Below, piece after piece: positions 35,785-47,262 of a stretch of DNA of 59,983 nt. The DNA comes from Acidimicrobiaceae bacterium (GTDB lineage: Bacteria > Actinomycetota > Acidimicrobiia > Acidimicrobiales > MedAcidi-G1), in the NCBI GenBank assembly GCA_002729765.1, contig PBYV01000006.1, positions 1 to 59,983 on the forward strand. The letters run 5' to 3'. The first letter of the stretch is position 1, and each line of letters opens with the position of its first letter. The position numbers were made by a program, and so were the translations under genes. The notes beneath the pieces were generated by a model that saw only the letters and a program-made list of their open reading frames with translations, searched no databases and was not told where the DNA came from.

Positions 35785-36840
35785 TTAGTCGTTAACTCCT
35801 AGTTTTTCATTTGCCTCACGAACAACATCAAAGTCGGAGTCTTTGGCTACCTGCATGTCAGTCCAACCAAATACTTCGTCAGAAACCGCTTCGCCTTCTT
35901 CAGTTTTCAAGTAAGCATCCATGTTGTAATAGATGGCACCCTTCAAACTGTCTGGCAAGTCGGTTCTTACAGCTATTACGTCATTAGGAATTTCCGCAGT
36001 GAGGTTGAAGACAATTACTTTGTCGCCTACATCCGTGTTCGTCTTCCTCATTGTTCGACGTGCATCGTCATAGGCAACACCAAAGTCTGCATCACCGTTG
36101 TAAACAGCAGCAACGGCACCATCATGCCCACCGGCAAAAACTTTTCCGTACTGGTCATCTTCGATTCCTGCATTTCGAAGTTGCAACGTTGGGTACTGGT
36201 AGCCAGATGTTGAACTTTCGTTGGTAAATGCGACAGTCTTTCCAATCACATTACTTATATCTGCCATGCAGGACATTCCAGGAGAGACGCTTCCTGCATC
36301 AACTGTTTCTGCAAGTTCTTTGCCTGAGTCTCCAAAGGAAACACCTACTTGCAAGGCGACTGCATCAACTGCACCGACTTGTTCCATACCATCTGACCCA
36401 TTTATTAGAGCTGTTCCTGACTTAAGCGTGCCTGGTTCACAGATACTTGAGTCATTTGTCATCCATTGACCATGATATGTAGGTGCTCCATAGCGAATTG
36501 CTTGAGCCATAACACTCATATTTCCAAATTCTTTTTGAGCCATTACGAACCCAGCAGGTCCAAATGCACCAAGATCTGCTTTGCCGGTTCCCATTGCGGT
36601 TCCGAGTCCCACGAAGTCAGTAGTTACAATACCTTCTACTTCGATTCCTAGTTTTTGTGATAGATGATCCACCATGGGTTTGATGTCATCTTGTAGTTGG
36701 TCTTGTTCTTGGCTCGGAACAAAACCGAAGACAATCTTGTCTGGCCATTCCTCACCTGACTGTTCGGATTCTTCACTTCCGCAAGATACGACCAAAAGTG
36801 ATAGTGCTAAGACTGCAGCAACTCTTTTAATTATTTTCAT
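35785..36840 (-). CDS. phnD: phosphonate-type ABC transporter substrate-binding lipoprotein PhnD
   Basis: A 351-residue lipoprotein: signal with lipobox LVVSC (Cys20), then KIVFGFVPSQEQDQL, the standard PhnD start. The core has GKADLGAFGPAGFVMA and TNESSTSGYQYPTLQLR, matching the phosphate/phosphonate-binding PhnD/THI5-like fold. Substrate may be phosphonate, phosphite or phosphate ester; sequence does not decide. It opens the phnDCEE operon. GGAG precedes the start ATG. Confidence 0.88.
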   Translation of the reverse strand: MKIIKRVAAVLALSLLVVSCGSEESEQSGEEWPDKIVFGFVPSQEQDQLQDDIKPMVDHLSQKLGIEVEGIVTTDFVGLGTAMGTGKADLGAFGPAGFVMAQKEFGNMSVMAQAIRYGAPTYHGQWMTNDSSICEPGTLKSGTALINGSDGMEQVGAVDAVALQVGVSFGDSGKELAETVDAGSVSPGMSCMADISNVIGKTVAFTNESSTSGYQYPTLQLRNAGIEDDQYGKVFAGGHDGAVAAVYNGDADFGVAYDDARRTMRKTNTDVGDKVIVFNLTAEIPNDVIAVRTDLPDSLKGAIYYNMDAYLKTEEGEAVSDEVFGWTDMQVAKDSDFDVVREANEKLGVND

Positions 36841-38475: not shown

Positions 38476-40113
38476 ATGGATGTTCGCGAAAGTATTAAGA
38501 ATCTGATACGAGAAGCCCTGTTAAGTTTGGGTCTTGAAACGCCGGCCGAGATTCATTTAGAAAGACCAGCAAATGTTGAACATGGAGACTGGTCAACGAA
38601 TGTTGCTTTAGCTTTGGCTAAAAAAGCAGAATCGAATCCACGTGATCTAGCGGGGCAGTTAGCAACAACTCTTGAAAGTTTTCCGTCAGACCATGTAGCC
38701 AGATTAGAGGTTGCCGGGCCTGGATTTTTAAATTTTTATTTAAACAAAGCTTGGCTTTATGACGTCTTGTTGCAAGCAGTTGATGCTGGTTCTGAGGATT
38801 GGGCGCGTTCGGAAGAAGGAGCAAACAGGAAAGTAATTGTTGAATTTGTAAGCGCGAATCCGACTGGACCTTTACACGCTGGGCATGGAAGAGGGGCGTG
38901 TTACGGAGATTCGGTTGCCAGATTATTGGAAAGGTCAGGTTATTCGGTTTCGCGAGAATTCTATGTAAATGACCGAGGGACACAGATGAATTTATTTGCC
39001 GCTTCTTTGGCTGCCTGTGTTGCAGGAGAAGACATTCCAGCAGATGGATACCACGGGGCCTACATCAAAGAATGGGCTACTGAGATACCTGAAGACGAAG
39101 ATCCGCTTGATTGGGGTAAAAAACGAGCTTTATCTAGTCACAAAGAAGTTCTTAGCGACTTGAACATAGAATTTGATTCTTGGTTCAGCGAAACTTCGAT
39201 GGTTGACTCAGGTTCAATTGAAAAGACCCTCTCAATGCTCGAAGAGGCAAGTGCCTCTTATGAAAAAGATGGGGCTATTTGGTTAAAAAGCACAGAATAT
39301 GGTGATGACAAGGATCGAGTATTAGTTAAATCAGATGGAGAGTACACATACCTATTACCGGACGTTGCATATCATCTCGACAAATTAGTTAGAGCTGAAC
39401 GTCTTGTAAATGTTTGGGGCGCTGATCATCATGGGTACATCCCACGCATGAAAGCAGCGATTGAATCTTTAGGGTATGAAGCTGAAAGGCTAGAAGTAGA
39501 AGTTACTCAAATGGTAAATCTTCAGCGTTCCGGAGAAGAAGTAAAACTTTCAAAACGAACTGGAGACATAGTAGAACTTTCAGAAGTTGTAAAAGAAGTT
39601 GGACCTGATGCTGCACGTTTTACTTATCTACTTCAATCCATTGAAACAACTCAAACATTTGATTTGGATTTGGTCTCTAAAAGAGTAAATGAAAATCCGA
39701 TTTTTTATGTTCAATATGCATATGCCCGAATCCGGTCAATGATGAAAAAAGCTGATCAAATCGGTTTCAAGCCGTTGCCTCTTTCTGAGGTTGACCTGTC
39801 GGAACTTCAGCATCACAGAGAACTGGTTTTGATCCGGTCGCTGCATGAATTACCAGATGTTGTTGAGCGAGCTAGTCGCGAGCTGGCACCACATCAAATA
39901 ACAACATGGTTGAGGGAATTTGCCGGAGATTTACATGGCTTCTATCACGACTGTCGTATTCTTGGTGATGATGTAGAACCTTCTTTAACGCAAGCCCGTT
40001 TTCTGTTAATGAGGGGAGTTTTAGTCGGACTTGAGGTAGGAATGGAATTGTTGGGCGTTAGCGCTCCTGTAGAGATGTGGCGTGATGACCTTGTTGAAGA
40101 GGGGGATGGCTGA
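38476..40113 (+). CDS. argS: arginyl-tRNA synthetase
   Basis: Class I aminoacyl-tRNA synthetase of 545 residues that charges tRNA-Arg. The HIGH motif is HAGH (134-137) in NPTGPLHAGHGRG, and the KMSKS-like motif is VKLSKRTGD. The N-terminal ArgRS-specific domain (VEHGDWSTNVA) and the C-terminal anticodon-binding region are complete. It starts the lysine/threonine operon with a one-base stop-start overlap (TGATG) with lysA, an arrangement common in actinobacteria. Confidence 0.97.
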   Translation: MDVRESIKNLIREALLSLGLETPAEIHLERPANVEHGDWSTNVALALAKKAESNPRDLAGQLATTLESFPSDHVARLEVAGPGFLNFYLNKAWLYDVLLQAVDAGSEDWARSEEGANRKVIVEFVSANPTGPLHAGHGRGACYGDSVARLLERSGYSVSREFYVNDRGTQMNLFAASLAACVAGEDIPADGYHGAYIKEWATEIPEDEDPLDWGKKRALSSHKEVLSDLNIEFDSWFSETSMVDSGSIEKTLSMLEEASASYEKDGAIWLKSTEYGDDKDRVLVKSDGEYTYLLPDVAYHLDKLVRAERLVNVWGADHHGYIPRMKAAIESLGYEAERLEVEVTQMVNLQRSGEEVKLSKRTGDIVELSEVVKEVGPDAARFTYLLQSIETTQTFDLDLVSKRVNENPIFYVQYAYARIRSMMKKADQIGFKPLPLSEVDLSELQHHRELVLIRSLHELPDVVERASRELAPHQITTWLREFAGDLHGFYHDCRILGDDVEPSLTQARFLLMRGVLVGLEVGMELLGVSAPVEMWRDDLVEEGDG

Positions 40114-41384
40114 TGGCAGGTCCAATATCGCGTGATTTGTTGCCAGACACTACAGATATTTCATCTGGAGAACACACTCTTGTAGGAGGTTGTGACTTAT
40201 TAGAGCTTGCTCATGAATTTGGTACACCACTTTTCGTTTATGATGAAACACATTTGCGATCAAGATGTCGTGAAGCGGTGGAAGCATTTGATGGCAATGT
40301 CGCATACGCCACAAAAGCTTTTCTTTGCACAGAGATGGCAAGACTTGCTTATCAGGAAGGCATGAATCTTGACGTTGCAACTGGTGGAGAATTGTACATA
40401 GCTCGAAAAGCTGATGTTCCTGGCGAACGAATAGTAATGCATGGAAACAACAAGAGTTTCGAAGAACTCGACATGGCTCTCAGGGAGAACGTAGGACGTA
40501 TAGTCGTAGATTCTTTTAATGAACTTGATCGTTTAGAGGAATTGTGTGCAGACCTTAATAAGTCAATCAAAGTTCTTCTAAGAGTCACTCCCGGAGTGGA
40601 AGCGCATACTCATGAATTCGTTTCGACAGGACAAGAAGATTCAAAATTCGGATTTACAGTTAAATCAGGTGTAGCTGAAGAGGCCGTTGAGAGAGCTAGA
40701 AGTTCGAAACATTTGGAATTACTAGGATTACATGCCCATATTGGCAGTCAGGTTTTTGATGTCCAGCCATTCGCGAAAGCAGTCGGAGTATTAGCAGAAT
40801 TTGCAGCTCCGTATGATTTCCCTGAGTTGGTTGTTGGAGGAGGCTTAGGGGTCCCTTATGTCGAAGGAGAATCTGCTCCTTCCATACAAGAGTGGGCAGA
40901 CGCAATTTTCGATGCTTGTGCAAAGGCTGGAGTTAAATCTTCAGTTGGTTCAGAGCCGGGGCGTTCCATAGTCGCTAGCGCAGCCGTAACTCTCTACACA
41001 GTAGGAACAATTAAAGAAGTTCCTGGTCATAGGACCTATGTTTCGGTTGATGGCGGAATGAGTGATAATCCTAGACCAGCTCTTTACGGGTCCGGTTATG
41101 AGACTTTTCTGCCAAGATCAAATCAAACGGAACGGCAAAGCTCAGTACGTCTTGTAGGTAAACATTGCGAATCTGGAGATGTTCTTATAAAAGAAGCATG
41201 GGTTCCTGAAGATCTCTCAGTAGGAGATATTCTTGCCACACCTGTAACGGGTGCTTATGGTCACTCAATGGGTTCGAATTACAATCAAATGCTTAGGCCA
41301 GCAGTCGTTTTCGTATCAGATGGATCTCCACGACTGGTTGTAGCAAGAGAATCATACGAAGATTTAGTAAGACGTGACATTTAA
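40113..41384 (+). CDS. lysA: diaminopimelate decarboxylase
   Basis: PLP enzyme for the last step of lysine synthesis, meso-diaminopimelate to lysine. The PLP lysine is K68 in AYATKAFL. Other landmarks are HAHIGSQV, VVGGGLGVPYV, GSEPGRSIVA and the substrate site HCESGDVL, where the Cys is donated across the dimer. The 423-residue length is normal. It follows argS with a 1-base overlap; the next gene hom starts 53 bases later. Confidence 0.96.
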   Translation: MAGPISRDLLPDTTDISSGEHTLVGGCDLLELAHEFGTPLFVYDETHLRSRCREAVEAFDGNVAYATKAFLCTEMARLAYQEGMNLDVATGGELYIARKADVPGERIVMHGNNKSFEELDMALRENVGRIVVDSFNELDRLEELCADLNKSIKVLLRVTPGVEAHTHEFVSTGQEDSKFGFTVKSGVAEEAVERARSSKHLELLGLHAHIGSQVFDVQPFAKAVGVLAEFAAPYDFPELVVGGGLGVPYVEGESAPSIQEWADAIFDACAKAGVKSSVGSEPGRSIVASAAVTLYTVGTIKEVPGHRTYVSVDGGMSDNPRPALYGSGYETFLPRSNQTERQSSVRLVGKHCESGDVLIKEAWVPEDLSVGDILATPVTGAYGHSMGSNYNQMLRPAVVFVSDGSPRLVVARESYEDLVRRDI

Positions 41385-41437: not shown

Positions 41438-42742
41438 ATGAGTATGGAATTAGCTAATGTCAACATAGGACTTCTAGGCTGCGGAACGGTCGGAGCCTCT
41501 TTGTGTAAATTAATCGATGAGCAGAGCGAAGCTATTGCCGAACGCACAGGACTAACACTCAATGTTGTCATGGTGGCTGTCCGCGACGTTTCGCGATCGC
41601 GAGATGTTCCTATAGATCCTTCTGCATTTACTGACGATTCGAATTTAGTTATTGAGAGTCCTGACGTGGACGTTGTCGTTGAAGTGATGGGAGGAATTAA
41701 TCCATCTAAAGAACTGATTCTAAAAGCTCTTGAACTTGGGAAACCTGTAGTTACAGCAAATAAGGAACTTTTGGCTACTCATGGAGATGAGTTGTACTCT
41801 TCAGCTAAACAATCTGAAGTTGATCTTTTATTTGAAGCTGCTGTTGCAGCTGCGATTCCAATCATCCGTCCGTTGCGCGAATCTTTAGTAGGTGAACCAA
41901 TTACACGAGTGATGGGAATAGTAAATGGAACCACAAATTTCATTCTTACGAAAATGACTGAAGAGAATATGCCATACGCAGACGCTCTCGACGAAGCGCA
42001 AAAACTTGGTTATGCAGAAAGCGACCCAACAGCTGATGTTGAAGGTCATGATGCAGCTGCGAAAGCTGCAATAATTGCAAGTCTTGCATTCGGAGGTCAG
42101 GTCACACTCGGTGACGTCCATGTTGAGGGGATCACAAAGATAACTCCTGAGGACATAGATTTTGCTCATCGTTTGAATCATTGCATAAAGCTTTTAGCAA
42201 TCGCAGAAAAACAAAAAATTGATGGTGAAGATGCCTTATGCGTTCGCGTTCACCCAAGTATGGTCCCTTTAACGCACCCTTTAGCCACAGTTCGAGAAAG
42301 TTTCAACGCCATTTTCGTCGAAGGTGATGCAATGGGAGAGTTGATGTTTTACGGAAGAGGCGCTGGAGGTGAACCTACAGCATCAGCAGTACTTGGCGAC
42401 TTGATCGACGCTTCTTGTAATTTAAAAAGATCTAATAGTGCTTCAATTGGCGAATTCAAACCTATGAGAATTTCACCAATTGCAGAGCTAGAAAGTCAGT
42501 ATTTCCTAGAAGTGGAAGTTGATGACCAACCAGGTGTGCTTGCACAAGTGGCTACTGTTCTCGGAGAACACCACGTCTCAATAAGGTCGATGGAACAAGA
42601 GGGTCTTGATAGTGAAGCAAGACTGATTTTTATTACGCATAAAGCTTTCGAGAGTGATTTTCAAGCCGCGACCGATGCTTTGAATGAGCTAGAAACAGTT
42701 AGAAGTGTAGGTACTGTGCTCAGGGTTATTGGCATCGATTGA
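41438..42742 (+). CDS. hom: homoserine dehydrogenase with ACT domain
   Basis: Reduces aspartate semialdehyde to homoserine. N-terminal NAD(P)-binding motif GLLGCGTVGASL, then the active-site region ANKELLATHG and GIVNGTTNFILTKM. The C-terminal ~80 residues form an ACT domain (YFLEVEVDDQPGVLAQVATVL) for feedback control, probably by threonine. Length 434. A second ATG at 41444 is possible. It overlaps the thrC frame by 4 bases if thrC starts at the TTG, but more likely is separated from it by 14 bases. Confidence 0.96.
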   Translation: MSMELANVNIGLLGCGTVGASLCKLIDEQSEAIAERTGLTLNVVMVAVRDVSRSRDVPIDPSAFTDDSNLVIESPDVDVVVEVMGGINPSKELILKALELGKPVVTANKELLATHGDELYSSAKQSEVDLLFEAAVAAAIPIIRPLRESLVGEPITRVMGIVNGTTNFILTKMTEENMPYADALDEAQKLGYAESDPTADVEGHDAAAKAAIIASLAFGGQVTLGDVHVEGITKITPEDIDFAHRLNHCIKLLAIAEKQKIDGEDALCVRVHPSMVPLTHPLATVRESFNAIFVEGDAMGELMFYGRGAGGEPTASAVLGDLIDASCNLKRSNSASIGEFKPMRISPIAELESQYFLEVEVDDQPGVLAQVATVLGEHHVSIRSMEQEGLDSEARLIFITHKAFESDFQAATDALNELETVRSVGTVLRVIGID

Positions 42743-42756
42743 GTCAAGGGGTTCGA

Positions 42757-44154
42757 GTGAAGTACGTAAGTACAAGAGGTTCAGCGCCAGAAAAAAACTT
42801 TAGTGGAGCTTTGCTGACAGGTCTCGCCGATGACGGAGGTCTATACGTTCCAGACGAATGGCCAACATTAAAAGGTTCAGGTAGTGGCGACTATTTAGAA
42901 ACAGCCTTTGAGGTTATGAACCTTTTTACAGCAGAAAGTCTTAATCAAGAAACGTTAAAAAAAATTATAGATGAAGCCTATAAGTCTTTCGATGCGCAGG
43001 AAGTTGTTCCTTTAATCGAATTAGATGAACAACTTTTCTTGATGGAATTATTCCATGGGCCCACTCTTGCATTCAAAGATATAGCCCTCCAACTGGTTGG
43101 TGGGCTATTTGATTACGAATTAAATAACCGAGGAGAGCATCTTACGATCGTAGGGGCAACTTCTGGGGATACAGGTTCTGCGGCAATTGAAGCTTGTAAA
43201 GATCGTCAGAATCTAGACATCGTGATTCTTCACCCTTCGGACAGAGTTTCTGAAGTGCAACGGAGACAGATGACTACAGTCGATTCTTTCAATGTTCATA
43301 ATGTTGCGATTGAAGGAACTTTCGATGATTGTCAAGACTTGGTTAAAGCGATGTTTAATGATCTTGAATACAGAAACAAATTGAGATTAGGTGCTGTTAA
43401 TTCAATTAACTGGGCGAGGGTCATGGCTCAGATCGTTTATTACGTGGTGGCTTCAGAAAGATTGGGTTCACACGATCAGCCAGTAATCTTTTCAGTCCCA
43501 ACTGGAAATTTTGGAAATGTATTTGCTGGCCACGCGGCGCGAAATTGTGGTCTAAACATTCCCAAATTATTGGTTGCAAGCAATAAAAACGATATTCTCA
43601 CTCAATTTTTTACTTCAGCTGAAATGAAAATTGACGAAGTCATACCAACCCTTTCTCCAAGTATGGATATTCAAATCTCATCTAATTTAGAAAGACTCAT
43701 TTTCGAATTATTTGAAAGAGACGGGACGAAGGTAAAGAACCTTTTAGAAAAGTTCCGAGCCGATGGAAGCGTTAAAGTCGACTCTGATACCGAAGCCAAG
43801 TTCTCCAATAGTTGGGCAGCGTACAGTTTCGATGATGAAGAAGTAATCAAGTGCATTTCTTCAGAATCAGAAAGATCAGGCGTTATTCTCGACCCTCATT
43901 CTGCAATAGGGGTTTTAGCTGCCCGTTCTCATCGAGATAAACAAATCGATCCTGAAATTCCAATTGTTTCTTTGGCTACGGCACATCCAGCTAAATTTCC
44001 CAAAGCAGTCGAAAGAGCATTGGGGGACTGTCCACCTCTTCCAGATCGTCTAGCGGATTTACACGAGCGTCCTGAGTTCTTTACCCGACTGCCGAATGAT
44101 TTAGAAATCGTGAAAGATCACGTGACCAGTTGCTCCAGAATAGATGAAAAATAA
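42757..44154 (+). CDS. thrC: threonine synthase
   Basis: PLP enzyme that turns O-phosphohomoserine into threonine. PLP lysine K107 in HGPTLAFKDIALQ, then VGATSGDTGSAAIEAC and VPTGNFGNVFAGH. The 465-residue length is that of the long (E. coli/yeast-like) type. I chose the GTG at 42757 because AAGGGG lies 5 bases before it; a TTG at 42739 overlapping the hom stop would add six residues. Its substrate must come from a homoserine kinase, but no thrB of the GHMP type follows. Confidence 0.95.
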   Translation: MKYVSTRGSAPEKNFSGALLTGLADDGGLYVPDEWPTLKGSGSGDYLETAFEVMNLFTAESLNQETLKKIIDEAYKSFDAQEVVPLIELDEQLFLMELFHGPTLAFKDIALQLVGGLFDYELNNRGEHLTIVGATSGDTGSAAIEACKDRQNLDIVILHPSDRVSEVQRRQMTTVDSFNVHNVAIEGTFDDCQDLVKAMFNDLEYRNKLRLGAVNSINWARVMAQIVYYVVASERLGSHDQPVIFSVPTGNFGNVFAGHAARNCGLNIPKLLVASNKNDILTQFFTSAEMKIDEVIPTLSPSMDIQISSNLERLIFELFERDGTKVKNLLEKFRADGSVKVDSDTEAKFSNSWAAYSFDDEEVIKCISSESERSGVILDPHSAIGVLAARSHRDKQIDPEIPIVSLATAHPAKFPKAVERALGDCPPLPDRLADLHERPEFFTRLPNDLEIVKDHVTSCSRIDEK

Positions 44155-45340
44155 TGAAGATGAAAAAGATTCTTGTCAGGATCAGAAAAGTATGAAATAT
44201 GTGATTTGCGTGCCAGACGGTTGTGCTGACTTACCAGTTCCGGAACTCGACGGAAGGACTCCTTTAGAGGTAGCTAATATGCCAAATCTTGACTCTCTTG
44301 CTGCTAAAAGCATTTTAGGCAGGGCAGAAGTAATTCCAAGTGGCATGCCTCCGGGAAGTGATGTAGGCAACATGTCGATTTTTGGCTACGACCCAAGTCA
44401 ATATCACACAGGGCGAGCCCCGATCGAGGTTGCTGCGCTTGGAATCAAATTAAGGCCAGATCAAACGGCGTTCAGGTGCAATTTTGTGAAAGTAGTTGAT
44501 GGAGTGATGATTGATTATGCAGGCGGAAACCCTTCTTCAGATGAAGCTGAGAAGGTTATTGCTCAATTAAATCGAGAATTAGGAAATCCTGACGAGGGTA
44601 TTTCCTTTTTACCAGGTGTCAGTTTTCGAAACGCAATGATCGCCCCTATGGATTTCGTTGATGCGGTTTGTGTACCCCCACATGATTTAACAGGTGATCC
44701 AGTTGTATTGCCTTCTGGGAGATCAGGACAAAAAATTTCTGACCTTATGGCTGCATCTGAAGAAATATTGGCCGCATCTAATTTAGAGGCAACGGGGATT
44801 TGGTTATGGGGTCAGGGAACGCAACCCCAATTGCCATCATTTAGTGAAGTCAATGGAGTGAATGCAGGTTTAGTCACAGCAGTTGATCTTGTTAGAGGTA
44901 TTGGGAAGTTAGCCGAAATGAAAGTATGCGATATTCCGGGTGCAACCGGTTGGTATGACACAGATTATGAAGGGAAGAGAGATATGGCTCTAAGAGAGTT
45001 GGAGGGCGGTTTAGACTTATTCATAATTCATGTTGAAGCTACTGATGAAGCTGGTCACGCTGGAAATGTTGAAGCTAAAGTCGAATCTCTCGAAAATTGG
45101 GATAGCCGGATTTTGAAAGGGTTGATTTCCGGCTTAGAGGATTTAGGACCATGGAGAATGTTGATGCTTCCTGATCATGCAACTCCTTTGACGCTTCGGA
45201 CGCATACGCCTGATCCCGTTCCTTATCTCCTGTTTGATTCAGAAAAAGATTCGGATGGTGGTGTTTTCACTGAGATTGGCGTTTCGGAGATGCCTTTGAC
45301 TCAGGGGTATCAGCTTATGAAAGCTCTTTTAGCCAACTAA
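44144..45340 (+). CDS. ApgM-like phosphoglycerate mutase homolog, proposed homoserine kinase
   Basis: A 398-residue alkaline-phosphatase-superfamily protein of the archaeal cofactor-independent phosphoglycerate mutase type. Metal-site motifs are visible: CVPDGCADLPV, PSGMPPGSDVGNMSIFGYDP (Ser of SDVGN), FIIHVEATDEAGHAGNVEAK and LMLPDHATPLTLRTH. A subgroup of this family found beside thrC has been proposed as homoserine kinase. It overlaps thrC by 11 bases if translation starts at 44144; an ATG at 44192 is a likely alternative. A terminator follows. Confidence 0.8.
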   Translation: MKNNEDEKDSCQDQKSMKYVICVPDGCADLPVPELDGRTPLEVANMPNLDSLAAKSILGRAEVIPSGMPPGSDVGNMSIFGYDPSQYHTGRAPIEVAALGIKLRPDQTAFRCNFVKVVDGVMIDYAGGNPSSDEAEKVIAQLNRELGNPDEGISFLPGVSFRNAMIAPMDFVDAVCVPPHDLTGDPVVLPSGRSGQKISDLMAASEEILAASNLEATGIWLWGQGTQPQLPSFSEVNGVNAGLVTAVDLVRGIGKLAEMKVCDIPGATGWYDTDYEGKRDMALRELEGGLDLFIIHVEATDEAGHAGNVEAKVESLENWDSRILKGLISGLEDLGPWRMLMLPDHATPLTLRTHTPDPVPYLLFDSEKDSDGGVFTEIGVSEMPLTQGYQLMKALLAN

Positions 45341-45594: not shown

Positions 45595-47262
45595 ATGGAC
45601 TCGACTGAGTTACAAAGCGATTCATTGGAAGCCAAAGGGCGAGATGAACTTATTACAATTGCCACGGCTTTAGGAGGGAAACCTGCTTCACGTGCCAGAA
45701 AAGCGGAGATAGTTGAGTTGATCCTTGATTTGGCTTCTGGAGGTACTTCCTCTTCGACTTCAAAAACTGAAGAGTCGGAAAAAGAGACAACTGCAAGTGA
45801 TCAAGAAGCAACCACTACAAAAGATCAAGAAGAACCGCCAGCTGATTGGGAGGTTGCTCTCAAGAGTGAGAATGAAGTTGAGGAAGAGATCAAGGACGAC
45901 GATTCCAGCAAAGACGACGATTCCAGCAAATCTGTGAAACCTGAAACTTCGAGTAATGCTAGTAGTAGCAGAACATCTTCAAGTAGAGATTCTGAATCAA
46001 GAAGTTCTAGCAACAATCGAGAAAAACGTAGTAATGAATTCACGGAACCAGGAAACCGCCGCCGCCGCCGCCGTGGTAGGCCAGATGGCCAAGATGATTC
46101 CTGGGATGGTGAACCTGTTTCGATAGAAGGTTATTTGGACTTACGTAATGAAGGTTATGGCTTTTTGAGAACAACAGGATTCCGCCCTTCAAAACAAGAC
46201 GCTTATGTATCCGTGAAACAGGTCAAGCAATTTGATCTTCGACGCGGAGACTACTTGGTTGGTAGGGCAAGGCCGGCAAATAGAAGTGAAAAAAACCCTG
46301 CTTTGTTGAGATTAGACACTGTAAATGGGAACCCGCCCGAAGATGCGCTGAAACGTCCTCATTTCGAAGATCTGACACCTCTCTTTCCAGATGAACGGTT
46401 AAACCTCGAATTAGCTGCTGACCCATCTAATATGACTGCTCGCATCGTTGACCTGTTATCCCCAATAGGTAAGGGACAAAGGGGCCTTATCGTCTCACCG
46501 CCGAAGGCTGGTAAGACAACAATCATGAAACAAATCGCTAGATCAATAGAGACAAATAACCCTGAAGTTAAATTGATTGTATTACTAGTTGACGAAAGAC
46601 CTGAAGAAGTCACTGATATGAAAAGGTGGCTTATGAAGGGTGAAGTTGCCGCTTCAACTTTTGATAGACCGGCTGAAGAGCACACTGCTATTGCCGAAGT
46701 AACCATAGAAAGAGCTCGAAGACTTGTTGAATATGGTGAAGACGTAGTGATCATTCTTGATGGAATCACACGATTAGCTAGAGCATATAATTTGGCCGCT
46801 CCAGCGACAGGCCGAATCATGTCTGGTGGTGTTGATAGTGGGGCTTTGTATCCGCCAAAGAAATTTTTTGGTGCTGCTAGAAATGTTGAAGAAGGTGGCT
46901 CTTTGACTATTTTGGCCACAGCTTTAGTGGAAACAGGATCAAAGATGGATGAAGTAATTTTCGAAGAGTTCAAAGGAACAGGAAACATGGAGCTTCGTTT
47001 GGACCGAAGAATAGCTGAAAGACGCGTGTATCCCGCTATTGACGTGAATGCCTCATCAACTCGTCATGAAGAACTCTTATTTGATCGCAAGCAATTAAAC
47101 CAAGTGTGGAAATTAAGACGAGTTTTAAATGGTTTAGCATCTGACGGGGATAATGGTTCAGGCGCAGGCCTGGAGCTACTCATCGATCGACTAAAGACTT
47201 TTCCTAATAATGACGAATTTTTGGCAGAAGTTGCTAAAGGTCCGTCAATTGAAGCTTCTTGA
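45595..47262 (+). CDS. rho: transcription termination factor Rho
   Basis: RNA-dependent helicase, 555 residues. N-terminal [17 protein letters not shown] resembles the Rho N domain. Residues about 52-172 are a hydrophilic insertion: Ser/Thr/Asp/Glu-rich, with a DDDSSK repeat, then a stretch of six arginines ([10 protein letters not shown]). The RNA-binding domain follows with [18 protein letters not shown]. The ATPase core has Walker [10 protein letters not shown] (301-309) and Walker [18 protein letters not shown]. Actinobacterial Rho proteins commonly carry such insertions. Confidence 0.96.
45895..45930 (+). repeat. perfect 18-base tandem duplication inside rho
   Basis: GACGACGATTCCAGCAAA occurs twice head to tail (45895-45912 and 45913-45930), encoding DDDSSK twice in the hydrophilic insertion of Rho. 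The copies are identical, which suggests recent slippage; the reading frame is kept. Confidence 0.9.

Follow-up and report, generated by a model that had tools for sequence, protein, structure and literature searches.

An ApgM-family gene beside thrC in Acidimicrobiia is a strong candidate for ThrB2, the proposed replacement of homoserine kinase

We analysed a 59,983-nucleotide stretch of DNA from an Acidimicrobiaceae bacterium (contig PBYV01000006.1), referred to here as the window, in which argS, lysA, hom, thrC and an ApgM-family gene follow one another on the forward strand, with rho downstream (Table 1). A preliminary description, made from the letters of the sequence, had read an argS-lysA-hom-thrC operon with an ApgM-type gene after thrC and without a GHMP-type thrB; profile matches and open reading frames confirm this arrangement, and no thrB lies within the operon of the window. 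No Rfam elements were found in the operon, and a consensus search found no terminator between the ApgM-family gene and rho. On the reverse strand of the window (35785-36840) there is also an ORF whose product looks like a substrate-binding lipoprotein, from an ABC transporter for phosphate or phosphonate.

Table 1. Genes of the operon, its downstream neighbour and sequence motifs of the ApgM-family gene (window positions)
Feature	Position	Strand	Basis and remarks
argS, arginyl-tRNA synthetase	38476..40113	+	ORF reading and synteny in 15/15 same-family loci; one-base overlap with lysA
lysA, diaminopimelate decarboxylase	40113..41384	+	TIGR01048, 449 bits
hom, homoserine dehydrogenase	41438..42742	+	PRK06349, 545.1 bits; 4-base overlap with thrC
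thrC, threonine synthase, long type with Thr_synth_N domain	42739..44154	+	TIGR00260, 272.7 bits; PF14821, PF00291, PF24857
Proposed thrB2, ApgM-family gene	44192..45340	+	Conserved start gives 382 aa; the longest ORF begins at 44144
Ser56 codon, predicted phosphorylated nucleophile (PPGSDVGN)	44357..44359	+	Residue comparison; nearby N60 replaces His of phosphoglycerate mutases
DYAGGN, residues 108-113, replaces DRRAGR of phosphoglycerate mutases	44513..44530	+	Residue comparison
IWLWGQG, residues 203-209, window-type hallmark	44798..44818	+	Residue comparison; Trp for Arg206 of phosphoglycerate mutases
HVEATDEAGH, residues 280-289	45029..45058	+	Residue comparison; metal ligands D285 and H289 kept, E282 for the Lys of phosphoglycerate mutases
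PDHATP, residues 327-332, retained motif of the metal site	45170..45187	+	Residue comparison
rho, downstream neighbour conserved over the class	45595..47262	+	ORF reading, class loci

The ApgM-family gene is an intact ORF (44144-45340, forward strand) of 398 aa in its longest reading. In a genome of the same genus (G160, locus L220; protein 97% identical) the ATG equivalent to 44144 reaches a stop after four codons, and the ATG-AAA-TAT at 44192 is conserved and preceded by CAGGA in the window and in most genus relatives. Since the upstream ATG is not conserved and the downstream one is, translation probably starts at 44192, which leaves a gap of 37 nt after the thrC stop. The gene had been described as either overlapping thrC by 11 bases or starting just after it; the overlap was dropped because the upstream ATG lacks conservation, and the start just after thrC stands.

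The order argS-lysA-hom-thrC-apgM was seen in all 15 same-family loci examined, every one of which retains hom and thrC next to the gene. Across the class the order hom-thrC-apgM-rho recurs, in some loci with inserted genes, and the thrC of other families within the class is of a short, unlike type (~353 aa), with apgM still nearby. In the class loci L075-L106 the ThrC between hom and the ApgM gene has been exchanged, long (471 aa, with Thr_synth_N) against short, and the neighbours are unchanged; to judge from these gene orders, the thrC-apgM pairing is one that outlasted the replacement of thrC by an unlike type. Among 59 loci outside the class, which come from Omnitrophota, Nitrospirota, deltaproteobacterial lineages, Planctomycetota and others, 43 have hom, thrC or lysC near the ApgM gene, often as hom-thrC-apgM-lysC-cimA, and besides these three genes no further neighbour was constant across the phyla of the out-of-class loci. 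The closest named relatives are marine or aquatic Acidimicrobiia-type MAGs (MedAcidi-G2B, Microthrix-like, Ca. Poriferisocius). Two records titled Bifidobacterium breve (L148) and Acidobacteria (L143) carry an Acidimicrobiia-type argS-lysA-hom-thrC-apgM-rho block with an ApgM protein 59-64% identical; the organism labels of both look wrong.

A genome of the same order without the ApgM-family gene (G075, locus L126) has the arrangement hom-thrC(long)-thrB-rho, where thrC and thrB overlap by one base. Its canonical thrB occupies the slot between thrC and rho, which is the slot of the ApgM gene in the window; it scores 135.6 bits against TIGR00191, under the cut-off, yet no family fits it better. 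GHMP-type ThrB (TIGR00191) and the window protein would share an expected product, and share the thrC-rho slot of G075, but their folds are unrelated and their sequences do not match, and no GHMP kinase domain was matched in the window protein by NCBIfam or Pfam profiles. Another genome (G055, locus L115) has hom-thrC-thrB-lysA-rho.

As a check on the idea of a missing homoserine kinase, the preliminary description had pointed to a search of the genome for thrB. No recognisable GHMP-type thrB (TIGR00191) was found in the source genome, and an APH-type thrB (TIGR00938) was absent there. GHMP kinases of this genome were rejected as thrB: two best match D-glycero-D-manno-heptose 7-phosphate kinase, and one is ispE. 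Because the source genome (1.89 Mb in 82 contigs) is 79.6% complete, absence there alone proves little. Of 24 further genomes from the family of the source genome, 13 reach a completeness of 91% or more; 22 of the 24 carry the ApgM-family gene and none has thrB (TIGR00191; best match only E = 2.7e-7). Most genomes of the same order that lack the ApgM-family gene have thrB.

The same relation holds across the class, which we sampled with 158 genomes from 50 families, counting a match of E < 1e-25 as a strong thrB. By genome, the window-type gene stands alone in 33 and thrB in 75, the two occur together in 7, and both are missing from 43; by family the corresponding numbers are 18, 24, 2 and 6 (Fisher p 1.3e-6, with families not fully independent). 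The window-type gene and thrB nearly exclude each other across the class. The main exception is the seven genomes with both (G020, G084, G107, G111, G123, G131 and G142, of families f22 and f35), where the window-type gene sits in the threonine locus and thrB elsewhere; in the six of the seven thrB loci that were read, no threonine genes were detected beside thrB. The two genes may be redundant, or one of them may have changed its function. The genomes with neither include the 34 of family f16, which are very small (~0.6-1.1 Mb, for example G005 and G011) and have either a threonine requirement or a third route. Seven genomes that are at least 93% complete (G031, G091, G122 and G153 of family f2, and G184, G189 and G192 of the same order) likewise lack both a strong thrB and the window-type gene.

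By profiles, the window protein (Pfam domains PF10143 and PF01676, the latter at 130.5 bits) passes the broader subfamily model TIGR00306 apgM (401.2 bits, cut-off 320). It narrowly misses PRK04200 (422.4 of 426 bits) and clearly misses PRK04024 (228.6 of 489) and PRK04135 (174.9 of 468), all three being equivalog models for ApgM phosphoglycerate mutase. Against TIGR02535, 'proposed homoserine kinase', it reaches 413.5 bits and so falls short of the curated threshold, 446.3. Two deeply placed members of its class clade, however, score 455.9 and 457.1 bits against TIGR02535, and members from other phyla 510-574, so the window sequence is no outsider to this clade but one of its diverged branches. 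A quickly built tree splits the window type (81 rows, including other phyla) from the phosphoglycerate mutase (PGM) types (9) with full support, the two groups being set apart by long branches. Given the missed TIGR02535 cut-off, we limit the claim to this: the window protein most likely works like ThrB2 and lies in the ThrB2 clade, and it is not a curated TIGR02535 member. PhpG, a CMP-5'-phosphonoformate--3-phosphoglycerate phosphonoformyl transferase (NF038358), is an ApgM-family protein named for a transfer other than mutation; the window protein matches its model with 163.7 bits, far under the cut-off of 545, and PhpG belongs to another pathway.

That a subgroup of the family near threonine genes had been proposed as homoserine kinase, as the preliminary description stated, agrees with the literature on TIGR02535 and ThrB2 (PMC7311316, PMC9026213). 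The TIGRFAM curators' idea was that TIGR02535 proteins stand in for homoserine kinase, with PEP, for example, as the donor (as cited in PMC7311316), and the name ThrB2 was given to the family from co-occurrence and co-localisation in gut genomes (PMC9026213). Homoserine kinase was the second most common amino-acid pathway annotation gap in a survey of 148 prototrophs; the gap concerned 29 organisms, of which 15 have a TIGR02535 member (PMC7311316). Mutants in BT2402 of Bacteroides thetaiotaomicron require threonine (PMC7311316). Complementation of an E. coli thrB mutant, a check that the preliminary description had named, failed with BT2402 (PMC7311316). The ThrB2 proposal is already published, and we found in the literature no biochemical proof of homoserine phosphorylation by any family member. 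The window gene resembles BT2402 in its profile family, in having hom and thrC as neighbours, in its complementarity with thrB and in its metal site, the zinc sites being kept in BT2402 (PMC9765024). It differs in the score below the TIGR02535 cut-off, in the actinobacterial argS-lysA-hom-thrC-rho setting and in the long-type ThrC.

The genetics of BT2402, with a need for threonine in the mutants yet no rescue of E. coli thrB by BT2402 alone, would also fit a protein that serves threonine synthesis in some other way, for instance as one part of a two-protein homoserine phosphorylation or through a different intermediate, and that is needed without being the sole phosphorylator. This is unlikely, as no gene other than hom, thrC and lysC is constant near the locus across phyla and thrB alone fills the slot in G075; the failure in E. 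coli can, we infer, stem from poor expression or from metal or donor supply.

The family name carried by PRK04200, the fold, and the best solved relatives, which are archaeal phosphoglycerate mutases, would instead suggest a glycolytic cofactor-independent phosphoglycerate mutase whose place beside thrC is incidental. We consider this very unlikely, given the conservation of the thrC adjacency over many phyla, the thrB in the same slot of G075, and the evidence on mutase supply and active-site residues that follows. The source genome has a gpmA (contig 14; TIGR01258, 322.5 bits, cut-off 81.7), as do 22 of the 25 family genomes, and lacks a bacterial gpmI; these were the other mutases for which a search had been suggested. 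His_Phos_1 genes of the source genome comprised this gpmA and one other that was checked (L010), which falls under every cut-off. The preliminary description had stated that a canonical thrB elsewhere, with the window gene as the only phosphoglycerate mutase of the genome, would refute its proposal; the outcome favours the proposal, as no thrB was found and gpmA is present.

Within the class, a second, distinct ApgM serves where gpmA is absent. A distant PGM-type ApgM (loci L095, L096, L097, L098, L100, L127 and L128), with 96-123 bits to the window protein, occurs in seven class genomes, and the two tested pass PRK04135. All seven genomes lack gpmA, and six of them also carry the window type. 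In this sample, a PGM-type ApgM distinct from the window type appears where gpmA is gone. In these seven genomes the PGM-type ApgM replaces gpmA, a second non-homologous replacement, here in glycolysis.

Residues were compared between 94 window-type homologues and nine PGM types (seven from the class and two with solved structures), in the numbering of the window protein. D9, S56, D285, D328, H329, T331 and H338 are common to both, and the window protein keeps the PF01676-type catalytic serine and metal motifs (D9, S56, D285, D328, H329, H338). Five basic residues found in all nine PGM types are replaced in the window type: R206 by W and K282 by E without exception among the 94 homologues, and nearly always H60 by N, R113 by H (N in the window) and H145 by Y (F in the window), so that the window protein itself has N, N, F, W and E at positions 60, 113, 145, 206 and 282. 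The DRRAGR motif of the PGM types becomes DF-A-GH or DYAGGN. A role of these five residues in substrate binding may be inferred from the comparison, and the loss of so many basic residues disfavours a phosphoglycerate substrate. A profile alignment to bacterial iPGM aligned the C-terminal metal motif only, and the substrate pocket did not align.

The predicted structure of the window protein (pLDDT 96.9) best matches archaeal ApgM 2zkt (2zkt_B; TM 0.78, 27% identity). With the archaeal enzymes (2zkt from Pyrococcus horikoshii; 3idd and 3kd8 from Thermoplasma acidophilum) it shares the fold, the catalytic serine and the metal motifs; it differs from them in sequence (~27% identity), in the replacement of DRRAGR, H60, H145, R206 and K282, and in falling into a separate clade. 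That homoserine phosphorylation has been lost and threonine is taken up, the gene being a leftover or serving an unrelated task, would accord with the 43 of 158 class genomes that lack both genes, 34 of them from the one small-genome family, but is extremely improbable, because the gene is still accompanied by hom and thrC in 15/15 same-family loci examined and the gene retains all invariant catalytic residues.

The window gene therefore remains a strong candidate for the already proposed replacement enzyme. The preliminary idea of an ApgM-like enzyme as the missing homoserine kinase is supported by the lack of thrB, the separate gpmA, the locus, the mutual exclusion, the slot in G075 and the lost basic residues. 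The clade split from the PGM types, the restriction of PGM-type ApgM to gpmA-less genomes and the threonine requirement of BT2402 mutants also count in favour of ThrB2. Weighing against ThrB2 are the failed rescue by BT2402, the seven genomes with both genes, the missed TIGR02535 cut-off and the incomplete genome. On balance, the window gene probably encodes ThrB2, a non-homologous replacement of homoserine kinase that would supply O-phosphohomoserine.

As an ApgM-branch member of the alkaline phosphatase superfamily, ThrB2 would act as a metal-dependent phosphotransferase, and it may have taken over from a GHMP-type homoserine kinase in this lineage. Homoserine from Hom would be converted by it to O-phosphohomoserine, the presumed product, for use by ThrC next door. 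Phosphate is predicted to pass through Ser56, and E282 and the WLWGQG loop may have supplanted the basic residues of the phosphoglycerate enzymes and recognise homoserine; the glutamate standing in place of lysine could meet the ammonium group of homoserine.

ATP as a donor would be unusual for the alkaline phosphatase superfamily fold. ATP dependence is not implied by the ApgM fold, and the donor need not be ATP. A non-ATP homoserine phosphotransferase, passing phosphate from PEP or another central metabolite via Ser56 to homoserine, is a possibility that we put forward tentatively. If true, threonine would be made by undescribed chemistry in many Acidimicrobiia and in members of many other phyla.

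To the ThrB2 proposal the case contributes an actinobacterial lineage, a relative with canonical thrB in the same slot, a residue signature, and a control by paralogues within a single class. The same-order genome with canonical thrB in the slot, and the genomes that carry the candidate together with a true ApgM mutase, serve as natural controls that point to the residues and to the protein pair worth comparing. Confirmation would correct the annotation of such genes as phosphoglycerate mutase.

The two GHMP kinase genes of the source genome that resemble D-glycero-D-manno-heptose 7-phosphate kinase (L001:351-1971 and L002:1273-2710, on contigs C81 and C54) are themselves of note in an actinobacterium, and next to each lies an ORF for what looks like a SIS-domain phosphoheptose isomerase.
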